Below are positions 30,774 through 40,592 of a DNA stretch of 64,000 bases, piece after piece. The first letter of the stretch is position 1; every line of letters starts with the position of its first letter. The notes under the pieces are model-generated. The model did no database searches, had not been told where the DNA came from, and was given only the letters and a program-made list of their open reading frames with translations. The translations under genes were made by a program, and so were the position numbers. Source of the DNA: Hyphomonadaceae bacterium (GTDB lineage: Bacteria; Pseudomonadota; Alphaproteobacteria; Rhizobiales; Hyphomicrobiaceae); assembly GCA_019747815.1 (NCBI GenBank), contig JAIEQJ010000022.1, forward strand, positions 1-64,000, written 5' to 3'.

Positions 30774-31499
30774 TTGGCTGCGCCAGCGCAATCGCACATC
30801 CCGCCCTGGCGGGCGACCGTGGTGACGCTGTTTCCGGAGCTGTTTCCGGGACCGCTCGCCGCATCGCTCGCCGGCGAGGCCCTGAAGCAGGGACTGTGGG
30901 CGCTCGACAGCATCGCCCTCCGCGATTTCGGCCTCGGCCGGCACCGGACGGTGGACGACACGCCCGCCGGCGGCGGCGCCGGCATGGTCATGCGCGCCGA
31001 TGTTCTGGGCCCCGCGCTCGATAAGGCCATCGCCGCCCACCCCGCCGCAGCGCGCATCTATCTCTCCCCGCGCGGCGCACCCCTCACGCAGGTCGCGGCG
31101 CGCGAGCTCGCCGCTGCCCCCGGTGCGATCCTGCTCGCCGGCCGCTTCGAGGGCATCGATCAGCGCGTCATCGAGGCCCGGCGGCTGCGCGAGGTCTCGA
31201 TCGGCGACTACGTGCTCTCCGGCGGCGAGCTGGCGGCGATGGTGCTGATCGACGCCGTGGTGCGGCTGCTGCCCGGCGTCGTCGGCGCCGCCGCCTCGCT
31301 CAGCGAGGAAAGCTTCGAGGCCGGGCTGCTCGAATACCCGCACTACACGCGCCCGCGCGACTGGGAGGGCCTGGCGATCCCCGAGGTGCTGCTGTCGGGC
31401 GACCACAAGCGCATCGAGGCCTGGCGCCGCGCGGAAGCCGAGCGCCTCACGCGCGAGCGGCGCCCCGATTTATGGGCGCGGAAGAAGGAGGAGCCGTAG
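30774..31499 (+). CDS. trmD: tRNA (guanine-37-N1) methyltransferase
   Basis: This 241-residue enzyme methylates G37 next to the anticodon and prevents frameshifting. The SPOUT trefoil knot is visible as [28 protein letters not shown] and EYPHYTRP. The substrate-recognition GGGAGMVM and the C-terminal [17 protein letters not shown] are complete. The start is TTG at 30774 behind AAGGGAG. It is normally next to rpsP, rimM and rplS, but none of these flanks it here, so the operon has been split. Confidence 0.96.
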
Positions 31500-31517
31500 C
31501 CGTCCCCGCGGAACGCC

Positions 31518-32327
31518 TCAGCGCCGCACCGCCGGCGTCTCGATGGGAAGGCCCCTGGCCCGCGCCGCCAGGTAGAGCTCGAGTGCCACCAGCTCCGGGC
31601 TGCCCGCGGCGAAGGGCTCCGCCCGCACGCCCTGGAAGCACGCCCGCAGGCGCCGGTGCAGGGAGCCCGTGGTCTGCCATTCCAGGCGATAGGTGGGAAA
31701 CCCGTTGGGCTGGCCCTGGCTGATGCGCTCGGCGCGCAGCCGCTTGCCCCAGTTGTCGTCGTGGCACTGGGCGCAGGAGATGCTGAGCTGGCCCTGCTGG
31801 GTGAAGAACATGGCGCGGCCGGCGGCGAGGAAGGGCCGCGCCGGTCCCTTCGTCGCCACGTTCAGCGGCAGGCCGCGCGACTGATGAGCAACGAGAGCGG
31901 TGAGGGCCAGCAGCGCCTGCGATTCGTAAGGCAGCGGCGCGGCACGCTGGTGCTCGAGGCGGCAATTCTGGATGCGGCCCTCGAGGTTGAGCAGCCGCTG
32001 CAAGCGGGCATCGTAGGCTGGATAGCGCGCGGCCACGCCCTTCAAGGCGGACGGATCGCCGTGGCAGCTCGCGCACGCCTTGGCCCCAGCCCCCGCGGCC
32101 TCCCGCCAGAGCTTCTCGCCCTGCTCCACCCACAGCATGCCGGGGTTGATGCTGAGATCATCCTGCTGCGCCCGCGTCTCCGGCGCCAGGAAGTCCCGGC
32201 CCGATTTCCTATCGCCTGCGGCGATGCCGGGTTCCGTTGCCGTTTGCCCCGCCGCCGGCAGCGCGGCCAAGAGCATGAGGCTCGCGCCCGCCGCCCCGAG
32301 GGCTGCCCGTCGCCCGCGCCGCGCCAT
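31518..32327 (-). CDS. soxA: Diheme c-type cytochrome SoxA
   Basis: This is a 269-residue periplasmic subunit of the SoxAX thiosulfate-oxidising cytochrome. The signal peptide runs through AALGAAGASLMLLAALPAAG. Two heme sites CASCH and CAQCH are present, so it is the diheme type. The active-site cysteine lies in ACFQGVRAEPF. SoxAX couples thiosulfate to the SoxY carrier cysteine. The ATG overlaps the soxZ stop by one base (TGATG). It ends the operon and faces trmD 18 bases away. Confidence 0.93.
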   Translation of the reverse strand: MARRGRRAALGAAGASLMLLAALPAAGQTATEPGIAAGDRKSGRDFLAPETRAQQDDLSINPGMLWVEQGEKLWREAAGAGAKACASCHGDPSALKGVAARYPAYDARLQRLLNLEGRIQNCRLEHQRAAPLPYESQALLALTALVAHQSRGLPLNVATKGPARPFLAAGRAMFFTQQGQLSISCAQCHDDNWGKRLRAERISQGQPNGFPTYRLEWQTTGSLHRRLRACFQGVRAEPFAAGSPELVALELYLAARARGLPIETPAVRR

Positions 32328-32647
32328 CAGACGACGACAAGCCGCCGCTGCTCCCTGGTGACGGTGCCGTGCTGATCGGTCCACTCGAACACCACCTCGC
32401 CGGTCTCGGTCGCAAGGGTGGTGAAGCCGACGAACGGGTTGGCCGCCACGCCGGTGAAGAGGTCCATGCGGAACACCTCCTCGCCGGCATACGTGCAGGT
32501 GAAGCGCGTGATGATGTCGCGCGCAATGGCCAGGCCCACATGATCGCGGCGATAGCCGGTTTCCATCGGGTGGGTGATGATGGTCTTGATCTCCACCACC
32601 TCGCCCTTCCTGGCGCGGGCCGGCAGCACGATGCGGGTTGCGGGCAT
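32327..32647 (-). CDS. soxZ: Sulfur carrier complex subunit SoxZ
   Basis: This is a 106-residue immunoglobulin-like protein that pairs with SoxY. RIVLPARARKGEVVEIKTIITHPMETGYR opens it, and FTCTYAGEEVFRMDLFTGVAANPFVGFTT and the Tyr/Phe-rich strands continue. It ends EWTDQHGTVTREQRR. It starts ten bases after soxY. It has no cofactor or signal peptide of its own and should be exported with SoxY. Confidence 0.95.
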   Translation of the reverse strand: MPATRIVLPARARKGEVVEIKTIITHPMETGYRRDHVGLAIARDIITRFTCTYAGEEVFRMDLFTGVAANPFVGFTTLATETGEVVFEWTDQHGTVTREQRRLVVV

Positions 32648-32657
32648 GGGCCTCTCC

Positions 32658-33128
32658 TCACGTATCGTCGATGCAGGCCGCCTGGGTCACGACCACGTTG
32701 GCCGCGCTCGACCACAGCGAGCCGTCGCTCATCCGGGCGACCACGGTGATGTGCTGCGTGCCGGCGAGCCGGATGCTGGTCATCACCTGGGCCCGGCCGG
32801 AGCGGGGCCCCAGATGAAAGCGCACGACATTGGAGACCGGGTTCCTCTCCGAGAAGACATAGATGGTGTCGACGTGATCGGCCGCCGTCATCGGGCTTTC
32901 GACGCTGATGCGCAGCGGCACCGAGTTGCCGTTCTCCGCCAGCTCGGGCAGCACGAGCTTCACCCGGCCGGACTTCGGCGCGGCGCCGGCGCCCAGCGCC
33001 TCGCCCATGGCCTCTGCCATGTTTTCGGGCGTGGCGTGCGCTTGGTGTCCCGTCAACGGCAGGACGACAATGCCGATGGCCCCGGCCAACACTTTGCGCC
33101 GCGACGGGTTGCTGTCCCCTGGCTGCAT
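32658..33128 (-). CDS. soxY: SoxY-like sulfur carrier with atypical C-terminus
   Basis: This is a 156-residue periplasmic carrier. A twin-arginine signal (SRRKVLAGAIGIVVLPLTG) matches SoxY export. The body (VKLVLPELAENGNSVPLRISVESPM, then DTIYVFSERNPVSNV) is typical. Known SoxY proteins end in GGCGG, whose cysteine carries the sulfur chain. This one ends VVTQAACIDDT: one cysteine five residues from the end, but without the flexible glycines. Either it still works as a swinging arm or it has a changed substrate. The ATG at 33128, behind GAGGTGA, is preferred to the GTG at 33134. Confidence 0.88.
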   Translation of the reverse strand: MQPGDSNPSRRKVLAGAIGIVVLPLTGHQAHATPENMAEAMGEALGAGAAPKSGRVKLVLPELAENGNSVPLRISVESPMTAADHVDTIYVFSERNPVSNVVRFHLGPRSGRAQVMTSIRLAGTQHITVVARMSDGSLWSSAANVVVTQAACIDDT

Positions 33129-33130
33129 GC

Positions 33131-33619
33131 TCACCTCGTCCCGTTGTCCTGGCGGAGAGTGGCGAGGAACGCGACGATGTCCTCGATCTCATCCGCCGTC
33201 AGTGCCGGCTTGCCGGCATAGGCCGCCGCAACCCGCTTCAGCCCGTCCACGCGATAGTAGGAGGGCATGATGCTGCGGGGGTTTACGCGCCGCTGGTCGG
33301 CAACCCGCAAGCGTATCTGGCCCTCGCTCAGGCGATCGGCAATGCCTTTGAGGCTCGGGCCGACGTTGCCGTGCAGGCCTTCGTCCGGGGCGGGGATCAC
33401 GTGGCAGATCGCACAGTTGCCCCGCTCGCGGCTCAAGGCAATGGCGCGGCCGCGCGCTGCATCTGCGGGCTTGCCCGTCAGGGAGCGCATGATGGCATCG
33501 CCCTCGATCCGCATGACATCGCTCGGCCCTTCCGCCGCCCGGCCCGCGGGCGCCCGCAGCAGGTGAGCGCCCGCAACCAGCAGCGCGGCAGCGGCGAGAA
33601 GGGCCGCTCCCCGCCGCAT
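33131..33619 (-). CDS. soxX: Monoheme c-type cytochrome SoxX
   Basis: This is a 162-residue periplasmic cytochrome that forms SoxAX with SoxA. A signal peptide (ALLAAAALLVAGAHLL) precedes one heme motif, CAICH, and an axial methionine in NPRSIMPSYYRVDG, both typical of SoxX. VGPSLKGIADR lies between them. It follows the large molybdenum subunit after one base and ends two bases before soxY, so transcription and translation are tightly coupled. Confidence 0.93.
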   Translation of the reverse strand: MRRGAALLAAAALLVAGAHLLRAPAGRAAEGPSDVMRIEGDAIMRSLTGKPADAARGRAIALSRERGNCAICHVIPAPDEGLHGNVGPSLKGIADRLSEGQIRLRVADQRRVNPRSIMPSYYRVDGLKRVAAAYAGKPALTADEIEDIVAFLATLRQDNGTR

Positions 33620-33620
33620 G

Positions 33621-35831
33621 TCACGCCCGCTGCAGCCGCACGTTCTTCAGCGGCAGCGTGTAGATGCCCTGCCCGGTGGCGGCGTAGATGGCGTTGAGCA
33701 CCGCCGGCGCTGCGACGCAGATGGTGGGCTCGCCGACACCGCCCCAGAAGCCGCCGGACGGCGCCAGGATGGTTTCGATCTTGGGGAAGTCCTCCATCAG
33801 CATCATCGGATAGCTGTCGAAGTTCTCCTCCACCATGCGGCCGCCGCTCACCGTGCATTCCTGGTAGAGCATGGCCCCAAGGCCGTAGGCGACCGAGCCC
33901 TCGACCTGCGCGATCACCTGCTGCGGGTTGACCACGTGGCCGCAGTCGGTCGACATCACCAGGCGCTCGATCTTCACCCGGCCGCGGTCGCTCAGGCGCA
34001 CCTCGGCTGCCGCGGCGACGTAGCTGCCGTAGCCCATGTGCTGGGCGATGCCGCGGGTGAGGCCCGCCGGCGGCGGCGTGCCCCAGCCGATCTTGTCGGC
34101 CACGGCATTGAGCACGGCCAGATGCTTGGGGTGATTGCCCATGAGCTTGCGGCGGAACTCGAGCGGGTCCTTGCCGGCGGCCTTGGCCACCTCGTCGAGA
34201 AAGCACTCGAGCCAGATCGCGTTCTGGTTGTTGTTGACGCCGCGCCAGAAGCCCGGAGGAACATGCGTGTTGCGCATCGCATGGTCGATCAGGAGATTGG
34301 GCACGGTGTAGCCGAGCTGGCCTTCGGGGCCCTGCGGATTGAGGCCCTGGAAGGCGATCGAATCGCGCCCGTTCGCGTCCAGGCGCGCCGGGGCGACGGC
34401 TGCCAGGATCGACGGCGCAGAGATGCGCATGGCGAGGCCCACGAGCTCGCCCTTGTCGTCCAGTCCCGCCGACATCCGGCATATCCCGACCGGGCGGAAG
34501 CGGCCCTGGCGCATGTCCTCCTCGCGGCTCCAGATCACCTTGATCGGCACGCCCGGGATCTGCTTGGCAACCAGCACGGCCTTGGTGGTGTAGTCCTGGA
34601 AGCCGCGCCGGCCGAAGCCGCCGCCCAGGTGGTACTTGTAGACCTCGCACTTGGAGGGCGGCAGGCCTGCCGCCTCCGCGCAGGCGGCGAGCGAGGCCTC
34701 GCCGTTCTGCGACGCCACCCAAACCTCGCACCGGTCGGCGGTCCACTTCGCCACGCAGTTCATCGGCTCCATGGTCGCGTGGTTCTGGTAGGGCGAGAAG
34801 TAGACGGCCTCCAGCTTGCGCGCGGCGCCGGCAATGGCCTGCCCGGCATCGCCCACCGTGTTGCCGACGAAGACGCCCTCGGTCGCATCCAGGCCCTGCT
34901 TGAGGAACTCGGCAATCGACTGGCTCGAGACCTTGTCGTTGGCGCCCTCCTCCCAGGCGATGTTGAGAACCTTGAGCGCCGCGTTGGCCTGCCACCAGGT
35001 GTCGGCGACCACGGCGACGGCCGTATCTCCCACCTTCACGACATGGCGCACGCCGGGCATGGCCCGGGCCTTGGCCTCCTCGTAGCTCTTCACCTTGGCC
35101 CCGAACACGGGCGCATCCATGATCGAGGCGTTGAGCATGCCGGGCAGCTTCACGTCGATGGCAAACACCTGCTTGCCGGTGAGCTTGTCGGCCGTATCCA
35201 GGCGCTTCTCGCTCCTGCCGGCAATCTTCCAGCTCTTGGGGTCCTTGAGCGTGATGGCCTTGGAATCCGGCACCGGCAGCTTGGCGGCGGCGGCGGCAAC
35301 CTTGCCATAGGTCAGCCGGCGATTGGTTGCGGCATGGGTGATGACGCCGTTCGCCACTTTCACCTCTGCCACCGGCACTTTCCACTGATCGGCGGCGGCC
35401 TGCAGCAGCATCATGCGCGCCGCCGCGCCGCCCTTGCGCACATACTCCTGGGACTGGCGAATGCCCCGGCTGCCGCCGGTCGACATGTCGCCCCACAGGC
35501 GGTTGCGTGCGAGGTTCTGCCCGGGCGTGGGATATTCCGTCCTCACCTTCTTCCAGTCGCATTCCAGCTCCTCGGCGACGAGTTGGGCCAATCCCGTCAG
35601 CGTGCCTTGCCCCATCTCCGAGCGTGCGATGCGGACGACGACCTCGTCGTTGGGCCGGATGAACACCCAGGCGCCCACCTCGTTGCCGGTGGTGCCCAGC
35701 ACCGATTGCGCGAGCGCCTCCTTCAGGCCGCCCACATGCAAGCCGAGGGCAAGGCCGCCGCCCGTGGCGGCGCCGGAGATCAGGAAAGTGCGGCGGGACA
35801 GTCGGGTGGCAGTGGCTGTGCGAGCTGTCAT
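33621..35831 (-). CDS. Molybdenum hydroxylase large subunit (IorB/xanthine dehydrogenase family)
   Basis: This is a 736-residue aldehyde/xanthine oxidase family protein. A Tat signal (SRRTFLISGAATGGGLALG) exports it folded to the periplasm. FGRRGFQDYTTKA, GFWRGVNNNQNAIW and the catalytic glutamate in GGVGEPTI are visible. The layout matches the beta subunit of isoquinoline 1-oxidoreductase, without the fused cytochrome domains many relatives carry. The partner iron-sulfur gene precedes it by 11 bases and soxX follows after one base. A dedicated electron acceptor could therefore be SoxAX or another cytochrome. The substrate is unknown. Confidence 0.92.
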   Translation of the reverse strand: MTARTATATRLSRRTFLISGAATGGGLALGLHVGGLKEALAQSVLGTTGNEVGAWVFIRPNDEVVVRIARSEMGQGTLTGLAQLVAEELECDWKKVRTEYPTPGQNLARNRLWGDMSTGGSRGIRQSQEYVRKGGAAARMMLLQAAADQWKVPVAEVKVANGVITHAATNRRLTYGKVAAAAAKLPVPDSKAITLKDPKSWKIAGRSEKRLDTADKLTGKQVFAIDVKLPGMLNASIMDAPVFGAKVKSYEEAKARAMPGVRHVVKVGDTAVAVVADTWWQANAALKVLNIAWEEGANDKVSSQSIAEFLKQGLDATEGVFVGNTVGDAGQAIAGAARKLEAVYFSPYQNHATMEPMNCVAKWTADRCEVWVASQNGEASLAACAEAAGLPPSKCEVYKYHLGGGFGRRGFQDYTTKAVLVAKQIPGVPIKVIWSREEDMRQGRFRPVGICRMSAGLDDKGELVGLAMRISAPSILAAVAPARLDANGRDSIAFQGLNPQGPEGQLGYTVPNLLIDHAMRNTHVPPGFWRGVNNNQNAIWLECFLDEVAKAAGKDPLEFRRKLMGNHPKHLAVLNAVADKIGWGTPPPAGLTRGIAQHMGYGSYVAAAAEVRLSDRGRVKIERLVMSTDCGHVVNPQQVIAQVEGSVAYGLGAMLYQECTVSGGRMVEENFDSYPMMLMEDFPKIETILAPSGGFWGGVGEPTICVAAPAVLNAIYAATGQGIYTLPLKNVRLQRA

Positions 35832-35842
35832 GGCGCGTCTCC

Positions 35843-36325
35843 TCAAGCCTTCTTGCCGGCGGCAGAGGCCGAGGTATTGCCCGCGGCCGTGTGGATCGCA
35901 GCGCGGATGCGGCTGTAGGTGCCGCAGCGGCAGATGTTGGTCATCGCCGCATCGATATCCGCGTCGGTGGGCTTGGGCTTGCTCTTGAGCAGGGCCGCCG
36001 CCGCCATGATCTGGCCGGTCTGGCAATAGCCGCACTGCGGCACGTCGAGCGCCAGCCAGGCCCGCTGCACGGGATGATCGCCCCTGGCGGAGAGGCCCTC
36101 GATGGTGACGATGCGGTCGGTCGCCTTCACCGAGCTCAACGGGATGGAGCAGGAGCGCTGCAACGCGCCGTTGATGTGCACCGAGCAGGCGCCGCATTGG
36201 GCGATGCCGCAGCCGTACTTGGTGCCGGTGAGGCCGATCTGCTCGCGCAGCACCCACAGCAGCGGGGTGTCGGGAGCGGCCTCCACCTCACGGGTTCTGC
36301 CATTGACGTTGAGCCTTGCCATCAT
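35843..36325 (-). CDS. 2Fe-2S subunit of molybdenum hydroxylase (IorA-like)
   Basis: This is a 160-residue iron-sulfur protein with two [2Fe-2S] clusters. The plant-type site is [21 protein letters not shown], followed by the helical domain site [10 protein letters not shown] and CRCGTY. It begins [15 protein letters not shown] and has no signal, so it should cross the membrane with the Tat-targeted large subunit. GGAGGAGGG precedes the two possible ATGs (36325 and 36322). It heads the six-gene operon with SoxXYZA. Confidence 0.93.
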
Positions 36326-36872
36326 TCCCTCCTCCAGGTGCGATCCGGTTGATCCGGCTTCTATGCCCAGTGCTCGGGCAAAGTGTCTCGAAGGGGCAAG
36401 CACTGCAGCTCGGCGCAGACCGGCGCGCGTGATTACTCAGGGGCATGATTATAGCGGTGCGCACTGAACGGCGGCAAGCCTCGCCGCGCGGCGCACGCCG
36501 GCGGCGCGTCCATGCAGAAGAGGTCTATGCAGACGTGCATGACACGCGCGGCCGGTTCCGTGCTGCACCAAACGCCCGCGCGCGGCAGAAGCTTCGCGAG
36601 CGCGCGCGGCTTATGCCGGTGCCGCCCAGCCGCCGATCACTTGGCGTAGCGCATGCCAGCAACAGCGGTGTGGCCAGAACGTCGATGAGCCGGTTGGCTT
36701 TGGCGCCTGAGACGGCCGGCGTGCAGGCCGGTTCCTTGCAGGTGTGCGCCAAGCTCGGCAAAATCGCAGCGGTGGTCCGATGAAGCCATCCCCTGGAGCT
36801 GCCGTTGCTCGTCTGCCCCGATGGCGGCGGAGCGTCGCATCGTCCCAGCGCCGCCGCCAGGGTGGCAGTCTG
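36326..36872. other. 547 bp without a supported gene
   Basis: Both strands have short Arg/Ala-rich frames with no ribosome binding sites or domains. The region upstream of the molybdenum hydroxylase operon must hold its promoter, but I found no convincing -35/-10 pair. The right end leads into the tRNA-Phe promoter. Confidence 0.5.
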
Positions 36873-36936: not shown

Positions 36937-37012
36937 GCCCAGGTAGCTCAGTTGGTAGAGCACATGACTGAAAATCATGGTGTCGGCAGTTCAATTCTGC
37001 CCCTGGGCACCA
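36937..37012 (+). tRNA. tRNA-Phe(GAA)
   Basis: A complete 76-base cloverleaf with encoded CCA. The acceptor stem is GCCCAGG/CCTGGGC, the D arm is GCTCAGTTGGTAGAGC, and the anticodon loop is CTGAAAA between CATGA and TCATG, which gives GAA. The T loop is TTCAATT. The sequence just downstream looks foreign and holds a lone large gene, so this tRNA may mark an insertion site. Confidence 0.97.
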
Positions 37013-37381
37013 TGCCGCTGCTTCTCCACTGACGCCTTGGCTTCTCGTCTCTGAACGACCCATCGATTCACCGAGCACGGGGGCGGCCTTTCATTCCCTG
37101 TCTGGACGCGTCGCCTGAAGCGCTTTCGTGCAACGCTTGCGGGCAGCTTGCGTGCGCGTGAGCCCATCCAAAGAGGCGCATGAGCCGGCGAGCCGTGGCG
37201 CCGGCTCGGCCGCAAAGCGCGGCGCCGTCTGCCGAGCCGCTTTCAAGCCCTGCTACGCCGACCCCGATGATCCAGCGGCGCTGGGCGCTATCGGACGTGG
37301 GTGAGGCCCGGCCCAAGCGCATAGCTCAAGACCACCGCCTCGTCATGCGGGGACGCGCCCGTCACGGGCAAGCTGTCATGG
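37013..37381. other. Gene-free stretch between tRNA-Phe and the minisatellite
   Basis: I see no recognisable gene or integrase remnant in these 369 bases. Frames on both strands are compositionally ordinary and unsupported. No repeat of the tRNA-Phe 3' end was found nearby, so any attachment-site partner is unproven. Confidence 0.45.
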
Positions 37382-37531
37382 GAGTCGAGAAGGGGAAGGA
37401 GTCGAGAAGGGGAAGGAGTCAAGAAGGGGAAGGAGTCAAGAAGGGGAAGGAGTCAAGAAGGGGAAGGAGTCAAGAAGGGGAAGGAGTCGAGAAGGGGAAG
37501 GAGTCGAGAAGGGGAAGGAGTCGAGAAGGGA
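37382..37531 (+). repeat. 17-bp minisatellite, 8 full copies and one partial
   Basis: GAGTCGAGAAGGGGAAG repeats head to tail at 37382, 37399, 37416, 37433, 37450, 37467, 37484 and 37501, with a truncated ninth at 37518. Copies 3-6 read GAGTCAAG; the outer ones read GAGTCGAG. All are purine-only on this strand apart from TC. The unit is not a multiple of three, so the long frame through it (37180-37704) is probably accidental. Confidence 0.95.
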
Positions 37532-37808: not shown

Positions 37809-40592
37809 TCACGACTTTGCAAGAGTGGTGCTAATTATGTCTTGAGCATACGCGAGAGCGTCTTTTTGGTCATTGTTCAAATACTGGAGCATGGCGACCG
37901 TCCAGGCAAAGCTGCCCACGTCCTCGGGCAGCGATGATTCCGGATGCTGCAGCAACACGATGCTCTTCAGGCTTTCGCGAACGCCCAAGGCATAGGACCG
38001 CATCTCCTGAAGATTTCCTAAGTATTTGTAACATCTCTGGAGGGTATCTACAGATTCGTAGCCGCCATCTTTGCGCGGCATTTGCCCGCGCAGCTCGTCT
38101 GTCATCTTGCGAAAGCTCTCATCCGACAACGTTTTTTCATTGAACTTCGTGCGCTCTTCCCAACTATAATAGAGAAGATCATTGAGTGCGCGTCCTCGCG
38201 TCTGGGGGTCGTTCGGATTCTCCCACACTTCCTTGGCCAGGCTGAGCGCTGAAGCCAGGGCAATGCGTTGTTCGTGTTTGGGTATCTTGTCCTCGTCGGA
38301 CAGGCGCCAGTGGGTCAGCGCCAGCGAGAGACGAATGTCGTCGACGATCTTGTGCTTGGGGTGCACACGCCCGTCCCGGCTGTTGCGTATGATCTCGACC
38401 GCCTTGGACAGGTGCTGCCGCGAGAGCTCCAGCTCGCCTTGCCGGCGCCGCGCCTGCCCCAGCCTGAAATGCGCGGTCGCGTTCTCGGCGTCCTCGGCCA
38501 GGATCTCCTCGTACAGACTTACGGAGGTCGCCAGGTCGGTCTTGTCGCCTGTGTACATCAGCAGGTAGGCCTGCTCCGCCTTGGCCAGGAAGCGAAACTG
38601 CTTGGCGAGCGGGGCGTCCTCGATGGGTTTGTCGGCGAACTCCACCAGGAGCGATGCAAAGGCGTCGGCGGCCTGCCGGAACAGGCCGGGGTCGCCGCCG
38701 GTGGAGCTGGACGCATCCGCCCGCTTCCACAAGACATAGGCGGCGGACAGCCGATCCAGGATCTCGGCCGGAAGCCCGCTCAACCGCTCAAGCTGCGTCG
38801 CCGGCTGCTCGACCGAGCGTGCCGCTTTGATCTCGGGTGGCGGCGTGAGCTGGTCTTCCTCGGACTGCCGCTTGATCTCATCGACATACTGCAGGAGGCC
38901 GTCGACCAGCGCCTTCAAGATATTGAGGTGGCGCTGCCACGTGACGCCCGTCTTGCCCCGCTCCGATCCGTAGCGAAGCCGATGATCGATCGCCCCCCAC
39001 AATTCCTCCAGGGCGCTGCGGATCTGAAACTCCACGCGCATGTCCTGGACGCCGTGGTCGCCGCTGGTCACCACCCACACGATCAAATGCACCGAGGAAT
39101 AGCCGGTGCGATGCGAGCGTTCATGGACGTCGATCTTCAGCGGATAGCGCGCCGCAACCTCGCGCACGTCCTTGCTGATGGACAGAGGATCGTTCTCGTG
39201 CCTGGAAGAATGAATTCGAACCTCGATCGGCTTGTCCCGCCTGAAAAAGTTGGGCAAGCGATAGCCTTTGTCGATCTCCCCCAGCATCTCGGAGAGAACG
39301 AGTGCGATTTCGCTCGGGAAATGGGTGACAAGCCGGATGCCGCAGATGTCAACGAGCTCCTCGGGTCCGGGCAGTCTGTTGACCTCCATCTTCTCGAGTA
39401 TTCTGTCCTTGCCCTTGACCCGGCTCGCCTGCGCGTAGCAAACGCCCTTGATGCTCTCGGCCGCCGCCAGAAAGCCCATGAGCTGGTCGCGAACGAGCGA
39501 GGCCGCCTCGCGGTACTTGTACACTTGCAGCTCGGTCAGGTCCCGGCTGATCTGCTTCTTTGAGGCAGTCGTTGCAACGTCACGATCAGCGTCGGCGGCC
39601 TGTTGTCCGGCGCTCGATTTCGGCTTTGCCGAGGAACGACGCTTTTTCGGGGAGTGGGGCATCCGGATGAGAGGGATGTTCATCACCACGGTCCGAGACC
39701 TTTCCGCCTCGAAGATCCATTCCCCGGCATTTCTGGAATAGCTGTAGGCTCGCGTCCTCAGCTCACGACGGTTGAAGTCGATCTCGTAGAAGGCAAATCC
39801 GTGCGGCCAGCTGGAGCCCTGATACGCCGCGCCCGCCCCCAGGATGCCGAGGCGCGCTCCGGTGCTGGCCGCCTGAAATCGTCCCATCTGATCGTGCAAA
39901 TGCCCATGAAAGAAGAGATGGGCTCCTGTTTCCTGCGACAACGTGCGCTCGACCTCCTCTCTGTTCCAGTGGGCGAGCTGCTCCAGGGGATGATGCGCAA
40001 CGGCGATGACGAGACCGGGGTGGTCTTTGCATTTTCGCAGCGAGTCGTTGATCAGCTTCACATCGAGGCACAGCTTGCCGGGGTCCTCGTCGTTGCAGGA
40101 GAAGAGCGCCGAATTCAAGCCAATGATGTGAACGGGAATGCTCTCGACGGTGAGCTTGGAGTGGTATCCCAGCGGCGTTTCCCACACGCCCTTCAGCGGC
40201 AGCCGGGTGGAGGCGGCGGCGTGCCAATCGAGGAAGCCAGCCAGATGGCCGATGCCGGGCTCCTCCCTCCAGTCATGATAGCTTTCGGGTCCCGAGGCGA
40301 TCGACCGCAGCAATGCCGGCTTGGCCTTTCTTCGGTCGACGTCGTGGTTGCCCGGCACCACAAAGAGGCTGGTCTTCTTCCAGGGTGCGAGCAGCGCCGT
40401 GAGCCAGTCCTCTCCTCTGGTAAACTGCCTGGCATCCCCGCTTTGAGCGAGATCACCCGAAAAGATGCAAACATCAGGCGTCGATCCATCGCCGTGCGCC
40501 GCCTCGATCAGCGCATCGGCAATCCGGTTCTGATCCCCGAGTTTGTCACCGAACCCAAAGTGAACATCGGATACATGCAGAACACGAAGCAT
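37809..40592 (-). CDS. Metallophosphoesterase-RelA/SpoT synthetase-TPR fusion protein
   Basis: This 927-residue three-part protein has no name I know. Residues 1-300 are a calcineurin-like phosphoesterase with all metal motifs: DVH (9-11), GD (46-47), GNHD (81-84), HH (200-201) and GHLH (230-233). Residues about 355-575 are a RelA/SpoT nucleotide synthetase with SRVKGKDRILEKM, DICGIRLV, GYSSVH, VEFQIR (Glu521) and IDHRLRYG, so it looks active. A basic linker (about 310-350) joins them. The rest, from about 600, is helical TPR-like repeat sequence. There is no HD hydrolase, TGS or ACT domain. The ATG at 40592 has GGAG seven bases ahead. It is a lone gene beside tRNA-Phe, less GC-rich than its neighbours. 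An alarmone-based defence or stress role is inference. Confidence 0.85.
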   Translation of the reverse strand: MLRVLHVSDVHFGFGDKLGDQNRIADALIEAAHGDGSTPDVCIFSGDLAQSGDARQFTRGEDWLTALLAPWKKTSLFVVPGNHDVDRRKAKPALLRSIASGPESYHDWREEPGIGHLAGFLDWHAAASTRLPLKGVWETPLGYHSKLTVESIPVHIIGLNSALFSCNDEDPGKLCLDVKLINDSLRKCKDHPGLVIAVAHHPLEQLAHWNREEVERTLSQETGAHLFFHGHLHDQMGRFQAASTGARLGILGAGAAYQGSSWPHGFAFYEIDFNRRELRTRAYSYSRNAGEWIFEAERSRTVVMNIPLIRMPHSPKKRRSSAKPKSSAGQQAADADRDVATTASKKQISRDLTELQVYKYREAASLVRDQLMGFLAAAESIKGVCYAQASRVKGKDRILEKMEVNRLPGPEELVDICGIRLVTHFPSEIALVLSEMLGEIDKGYRLPNFFRRDKPIEVRIHSSRHENDPLSISKDVREVAARYPLKIDVHERSHRTGYSSVHLIVWVVTSGDHGVQDMRVEFQIRSALEELWGAIDHRLRYGSERGKTGVTWQRHLNILKALVDGLLQYVDEIKRQSEEDQLTPPPEIKAARSVEQPATQLERLSGLPAEILDRLSAAYVLWKRADASSSTGGDPGLFRQAADAFASLLVEFADKPIEDAPLAKQFRFLAKAEQAYLLMYTGDKTDLATSVSLYEEILAEDAENATAHFRLGQARRRQGELELSRQHLSKAVEIIRNSRDGRVHPKHKIVDDIRLSLALTHWRLSDEDKIPKHEQRIALASALSLAKEVWENPNDPQTRGRALNDLLYYSWEERTKFNEKTLSDESFRKMTDELRGQMPRKDGGYESVDTLQRCYKYLGNLQEMRSYALGVRESLKSIVLLQHPESSLPEDVGSFAWTVAMLQYLNNDQKDALAYAQDIISTTLAKS

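Follow-up and report, generated by a model that had tools for sequence, protein, structure and literature searches.

What would a single bacterial protein gain by joining a metallophosphoesterase to an alarmone synthetase, and could such a protein be a mobile defence gene? The question is raised by one gene in a Hyphomonadaceae bacterium, lying in a 64,000-nucleotide stretch of contig JAIEQJ010000022.1 (assembly GCA_019747815.1) that was analysed as a whole and is called the window here. The gene occupies positions 37809..40592 on the minus strand, stop codon included, and encodes 927 amino acids in an intact reading frame that starts with ATG at 40592, with GGAG 7 nt upstream of the start. 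Residues 1-310 (39663..40592, minus strand) form a calcineurin-like metallophosphoesterase (MPE) of the DS-8/DS-9/GASH effector type, defined by Pfam (Metallophos at residues 2-234, 1.9e-15), NCBIfam, AlphaFold and conservation. Residues 311-375 (39468..39662, minus strand) comprise a linker and the start of a long helix leading into the next domain; the end of the MPE model is of low confidence here, and residues 311-350 are only 11% identical to the full-length orthologue described below. A small alarmone synthetase (SAS) domain without an HD hydrolase follows at residues 376-585 (38838..39467, minus strand), identified by Pfam (RelA_SpoT at residues 390-543, 2.8e-11, 44.1 bits against a cut-off of 27) and by structural matches to RelP/RelQ. 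The remainder, residues 586-927 (37812..38837, minus strand), is an all-helical TPR tail, presumed to be regulatory or sensory; its Pfam TPR match at about residues 686-737 (3.8e-5) falls under the cut-off, and the TPR assignment is supported by the all-helical AlphaFold model and by structural matches. Pfam gave no match to HD, TGS or ACT domains, which sets the protein apart from long RSH proteins (RelA/SpoT/Rel).

AlphaFold2 models were built separately for residues 1-345 and 335-927, and both catalytic folds were confirmed by the predictions. The first model adopts a calcineurin-like fold (pLDDT 76, pTM 0.80) and matches Rv0805 (Z of about 20-21), SMPDL3A (Z 19) and GpdQ; its top Foldseek match is an integrative model of YYDD-YYDB (9a6c). 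In the second (pLDDT 82, pTM 0.55) a SAS fold precedes a tail of purely helical repeats, with RelP/RelQ as the best matches for the SAS domain and TPR superhelices also matched; because of the pTM of 0.55, the mutual placement of the two parts is unreliable. The MPE carries the DxH, GD, GNHD, H and GHxH metal-ligand motifs on a class III phosphodiesterase fold, as in calcineurin-like enzymes, and its metal-site residues D9, H11, D47, N82, H83, H201, H231 and H233 are identical in all nine relatives compared. Likewise, the RxK, K, D, R, Y and ExQxR residues of small alarmone synthetases are present, and R391, K393, K401, D415, R420, Y498, E521, Q523 and R525 are identical in 16/16 relatives. 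Motif mapping provides counterparts in this domain for R64, K66, K74, D90, R95, Y128, E145 and Q147 of FaRel2 (PMC11782079). At the position of FaRel2 S70 the window protein has Arg and the orthologue Ser, and Lys predominates in the family. The classical PKxNGYxS loop lacks its PK both in the window protein and in the family consensus. A preliminary description of this DNA, based on the letters alone, had proposed the three-part architecture, the lack of the usual HD hydrolase and regulatory domains, and full integrity of both motif sets. The architecture, the missing domains and the intact metal site were confirmed, while for the synthetase the claim holds for the nine core residues but not for the S70 position or the PK pair.

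The gene is isolated; its nearest features are an amidohydrolase gene, divergently oriented and 358 bp upstream, and a tRNA-Phe(GAA) gene at 36937..37012 on the plus strand, which faces the 3′ end of the gene from about 0.8 kb away. Between the tRNA and the gene, about nine head-to-tail copies of a 17-bp unit extend over 37381..37530 (no strand assigned). With a GC content of 0.607, where the remainder of the window has 0.676, the fusion gene is the GC-poorest of the window genes of at least 150 amino acids, and the earlier picture of a lone, GC-poorer gene beside a tRNA is thus accurate. No defence genes were noticed elsewhere in the window, whose genes were viewed short of a full defence-library scan. 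A search of six congeners and 60 relatives returned no full-length match, only short MPE-type matches in other genera; syntenic orthologues in all relatives, the pattern that would speak against mobility, were looked for and did not occur. In two congeners (G004 and G005) tRNA-Phe directly follows a conserved block ending at window position 31480, whereas about 5.4 kb separates the two in the window, and in G004 the amidohydrolase that adjoins the fusion gene in the window lies on a different contig from tRNA-Phe; the DNA on both sides of the tRNA is therefore variable. The segment at 31481-36871, which carries a SoxY gene, a molybdopterin-binding oxidoreductase gene and others, is missing at that place in the two congeners.

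The case for the tRNA as an integration site is less firm. A search of the window for a second copy of the tRNA-Phe 3′ end, which would mark an att site, found none, and no integrase gene was noticed. A tRNA lies within 4 kb at 6/21 family loci compared with 3/30 control loci of DsRel-like genes (Fisher p = 0.09), which is no more than suggestive of tRNA proximity as a family trait. The proposal of a defence-type mobile gene with a TPR regulatory tail keeps its support from the lack of a match in congeners, the AT-richness, the scattered distribution, the MPE family and some defence islands among relatives, while its tRNA-integration component stands weakly.

The MPE domain belongs to a family with established links to defence. 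It matches the NCBIfam models DS8_antiphage (5e-31) and DS9 (7e-11) and the PADLOC model PDC-S60 (6e-30), although the protein is not itself a DS-8: the score of 107 bits compares with an NCBIfam cut-off of 790, the match is confined to the MPE, and no NTPase domain was found. Phage defence by DS-8 and DS-9 requires the predicted MPE catalytic residues and is abolished when they are mutated; the natural substrate or activator of DS-8-type MPE effectors is described as unknown (PMC13092281). DS-8, a single-gene MPE-NACHT system recovered with DefensePredictor (PMC13092281), has in common with the fusion a homologous N-terminal MPE in effector position, its metal site and its place in one large protein, but the fusion lacks NACHT, the place of which is taken by SAS and TPR. 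Relatives of the domain occupy the effector position in DS-8-like MPE-NTPase, MPE-AAA-TPR and MPE-GAAD proteins and in plasmid MPE-GASH operons, an arrangement predicted to mark conflict effectors (PMC7159879, PMC8195603). The GASH/GTPase-centred systems (PMC7159879), found on plasmids of Klebsiella, Pantoea, Aliivibrio and Agrobacterium, have a homologous MPE effector; unlike the fusion, they are multi-gene, with GASH and usually GTPase genes, and no synthetase was seen there. MPE genes beside or near GASH genes were observed at four such plasmid loci (L156, L157, L159 and L160). Apart from the two fusions, the closest MPE found (32% identity, clade 97/98) is encoded on a viral contig (L147, IMGVR_UViG_2900317408_000004) and differs from the fusion in being a standalone protein of 330 amino acids without SAS. 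On that contig (5986-7714) the MPE gene is followed by a 242-aa gene without an NCBIfam match, and the pair is a possible prophage defence cassette.

The C-terminal half, in turn, belongs to a rare and scattered family of SAS-TPR proteins of 565-673 amino acids that otherwise lack an MPE, found in Pseudomonadota, Bacteroidota, Planctomycetota and Thermodesulfobacteriota. The window SAS-TPR half and the standalone proteins form one clade (100/97) apart from DsRel-like proteins, and this long clade lies outside two DsRel-like groups in a tree built without published DsRel reference sequences. The DsRel protein Tde-SAS of Treponema denticola has the same order of SAS then TPR, and experiments show its TPR domain to act as a brake, lowering synthesis many-fold; DsRel proteins differ in length (about 370-410 aa), in forming a separate clade in the tree described here, in lacking an MPE and in having no defence link reported in that study (PMC10434055). 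CapRel and other toxSAS (PMC9712102, PMC11782079) offer a second comparison, with a toxic SAS-type domain and, in CapRel, in-cis control that a phage trigger releases; CapRel control lies in a pseudo-zinc-finger domain rather than in TPR, and CapRel has no MPE. No CapRel-named match was obtained with the PADLOC models, which may not include CapRel, and the C-terminal part of the fusion models as helical repeats.

In 20/20 loci, that of the second fusion among them, the SAS-TPR gene has a higher AT content than its flanks. At L039 an Avs3a gene (1e-185) lies one gene away; at L063 a type I restriction operon precedes the SAS-TPR gene by about 110 bp; and at L061, a Bradyrhizobium island, LmuA/LmuB-like genes occur together with a GTPase-MPE fusion. 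Clear defence islands thus account for 3/20 loci, in a hand count that covered part of the loci and had no random-locus background; about 17/20 have no recognised defence neighbour, and their surroundings are mostly housekeeping-like by eye. No neighbouring family recurs widely as a possible antitoxin across the 18 loci compared, and the window locus lacks the adjacent cognate antitoxin gene that characterises toxSAS. Relatives were found by an alignment-based scan, but not by single-protein pattern scans of genome and viral contigs; at E 1e-20 a SAS-TPR profile had no match among 385 genomes belonging to the class, a set without a positive control. Phage records yielded no match at E 1e-5. 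Our literature search found no report of activity, toxicity or phage protection for members of the long SAS-TPR family.

Among 397 genomes of the same order, one further full-length fusion was detected, at a different locus (G903:C1:2903303-2906170). It is 33% identical to the window protein over residues 3-921 (MPE 41%, SAS 33%, TPR 28%) and retains all 17 metal-site and core SAS residues, with alterations in the SAS domain at G497, S500 and H537. The gene lies next to transposase genes of the IS630 and IS110 types, and its GC content of 0.450 makes it AT-rich relative to its flanks (0.573). Each domain tree places the two fusions together, with firm support in the MPE tree (98/92) and weak support in the SAS-TPR tree (86/64), which is compatible with a single fusion event.

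Taken at about an even chance (probability near 0.5), our favoured explanation is that the gene has spread horizontally and on its own encodes a defence protein of the abortive-infection type, in which the TPR tail would restrain the SAS domain and the MPE effector would sit on the same switch. By analogy with Tde-SAS, the tail may hold the synthetase in a low-activity state until a phage-dependent signal binds the TPR part and releases it. The SAS domain, with its predicted fold and conserved catalytic residues, would then use ATP to pyrophosphorylate a purine nucleotide or tRNA and stop growth; as a second effector, the N-terminal MPE, with its conserved metal site, could attack nucleotides or nucleic acids. 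Since SAS-TPR proteins without MPE and MPE proteins without SAS both exist, each module appears self-sufficient, and a fusion that places the MPE effector under the control by which TPR gates SAS would be the simplest reading. Because most loci are housekeeping-like, we infer the defence function from the MPE family, the mobility and the three islands. Against it count the majority of loci, which have no recognised defence neighbour, the lack of any noticed near the window gene, and the fact that the best-studied SAS-TPR protein, Tde-SAS, is mainly a ppGpp synthetase of the stress response. As for the two-effector arrangement, the catalytic halves could be coupled otherwise, and only two fusions were found.

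One such coupling, which we regard as doubtful though possible, is an in-cis signalling pair in which the SAS product, a pyrophosphorylated nucleotide or tRNA-CCA-PP, activates the MPE or serves as its substrate; a possible example is an ATP-burning futile cycle with the MPE regenerating the acceptor. Activation of the MPE by the SAS product was among the roles suggested in the preliminary description. Conflict systems repeatedly combine nucleotide-making and nucleotide-cleaving domains (PMC7159879), the MPE fold is close to the nucleotide-acting Rv0805-type and SMPDL3A phosphodiesterases, and SAS-TPR and GTPase-MPE genes lie no more than about 6 kb apart in the Bradyrhizobium island. That island is a single case, however, and both modules are found alone in many genomes, so neither depends on the product of the other. 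The island itself (L061 777-17007, Bradyrhizobium acaciae) holds the GTPase-MPE fusion, LmuA-like, LmuB-like and SAS-TPR genes inside about 16 kb.

It is unlikely that the protein is instead a DsRel-type alarmone synthetase for stress or starvation with an accessory phosphoesterase and no role in defence. The precedent is Tde-SAS, likewise a SAS-TPR protein, which synthesises ppGpp and lets an E. coli relA spoT mutant grow again (PMC10434055); the scattered distribution, the lack of a match in six congeners, the AT-richness, the defence-island neighbours of some relatives and the separation from the sampled DsRel-like proteins argue against this role. The genome also encodes a separate 791-aa frame with a RelA_SpoT domain, the size of a long Rel, so the housekeeping alarmone supply is probably covered.

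The MPE was also put forward in the preliminary description as a counter-enzyme, that is, a built-in antidote removing the alarmone until infection, which we disfavour and consider quite improbable. To our knowledge, the antidote hydrolases of toxSAS are of the HD type. The idea gains from the lack of a separate adjacent antitoxin gene and from known modules in which small alarmone hydrolases pair with toxSAS (PMC10434055), but standalone SAS-TPR relatives cope without a fused MPE, and in DS-8/DS-9 the MPE is an effector needed for defence (PMC13092281). Finally, it is very improbable that the fusion is a product of decay or chance whose halves have no function together, since the small number of copies and the altered SAS positions of the orthologue are set against two open frames that, though 33% identical, both retain all eight metal ligands and all nine core residues of the SAS domain and cluster in both domain trees.

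The favoured reading, a TPR-gated defence protein with two effectors, would be new in its combination. NCBIfam and PADLOC models cover parts of the fusion and not the whole, and no published description of an MPE-SAS fusion was found in a literature search, most subscription journals being outside its reach; the novelty is that known effector modules are joined in a way not described in the sources searched. Because it joins such an effector to an alarmone synthetase, whose type of catalytic chemistry is known, the natural fusion suggests where the DS-8/DS-9 target could be sought, namely among nucleotides, alarmones and tRNA ends; if the in-cis circuit were true, it would show what DS-8-type MPE effectors naturally act on or are activated by. 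The scattered long SAS-TPR family would likewise supply defence candidates with regulation, sensing and effector in one chain.

Individual family loci carry further features. One standalone SAS-TPR gene (L172, 8895-10724) is AT-rich (GC 0.48 against 0.68) and lies between genes resembling those for alanine racemase and radA; its protein clusters with the two fusions (100/99). Two distant SAS-TPR genes (L067, 8590-9801, and L074, 4918-6108) are located near homologous tyrosyl-tRNA synthetase-like genes, possibly a common insertion spot.
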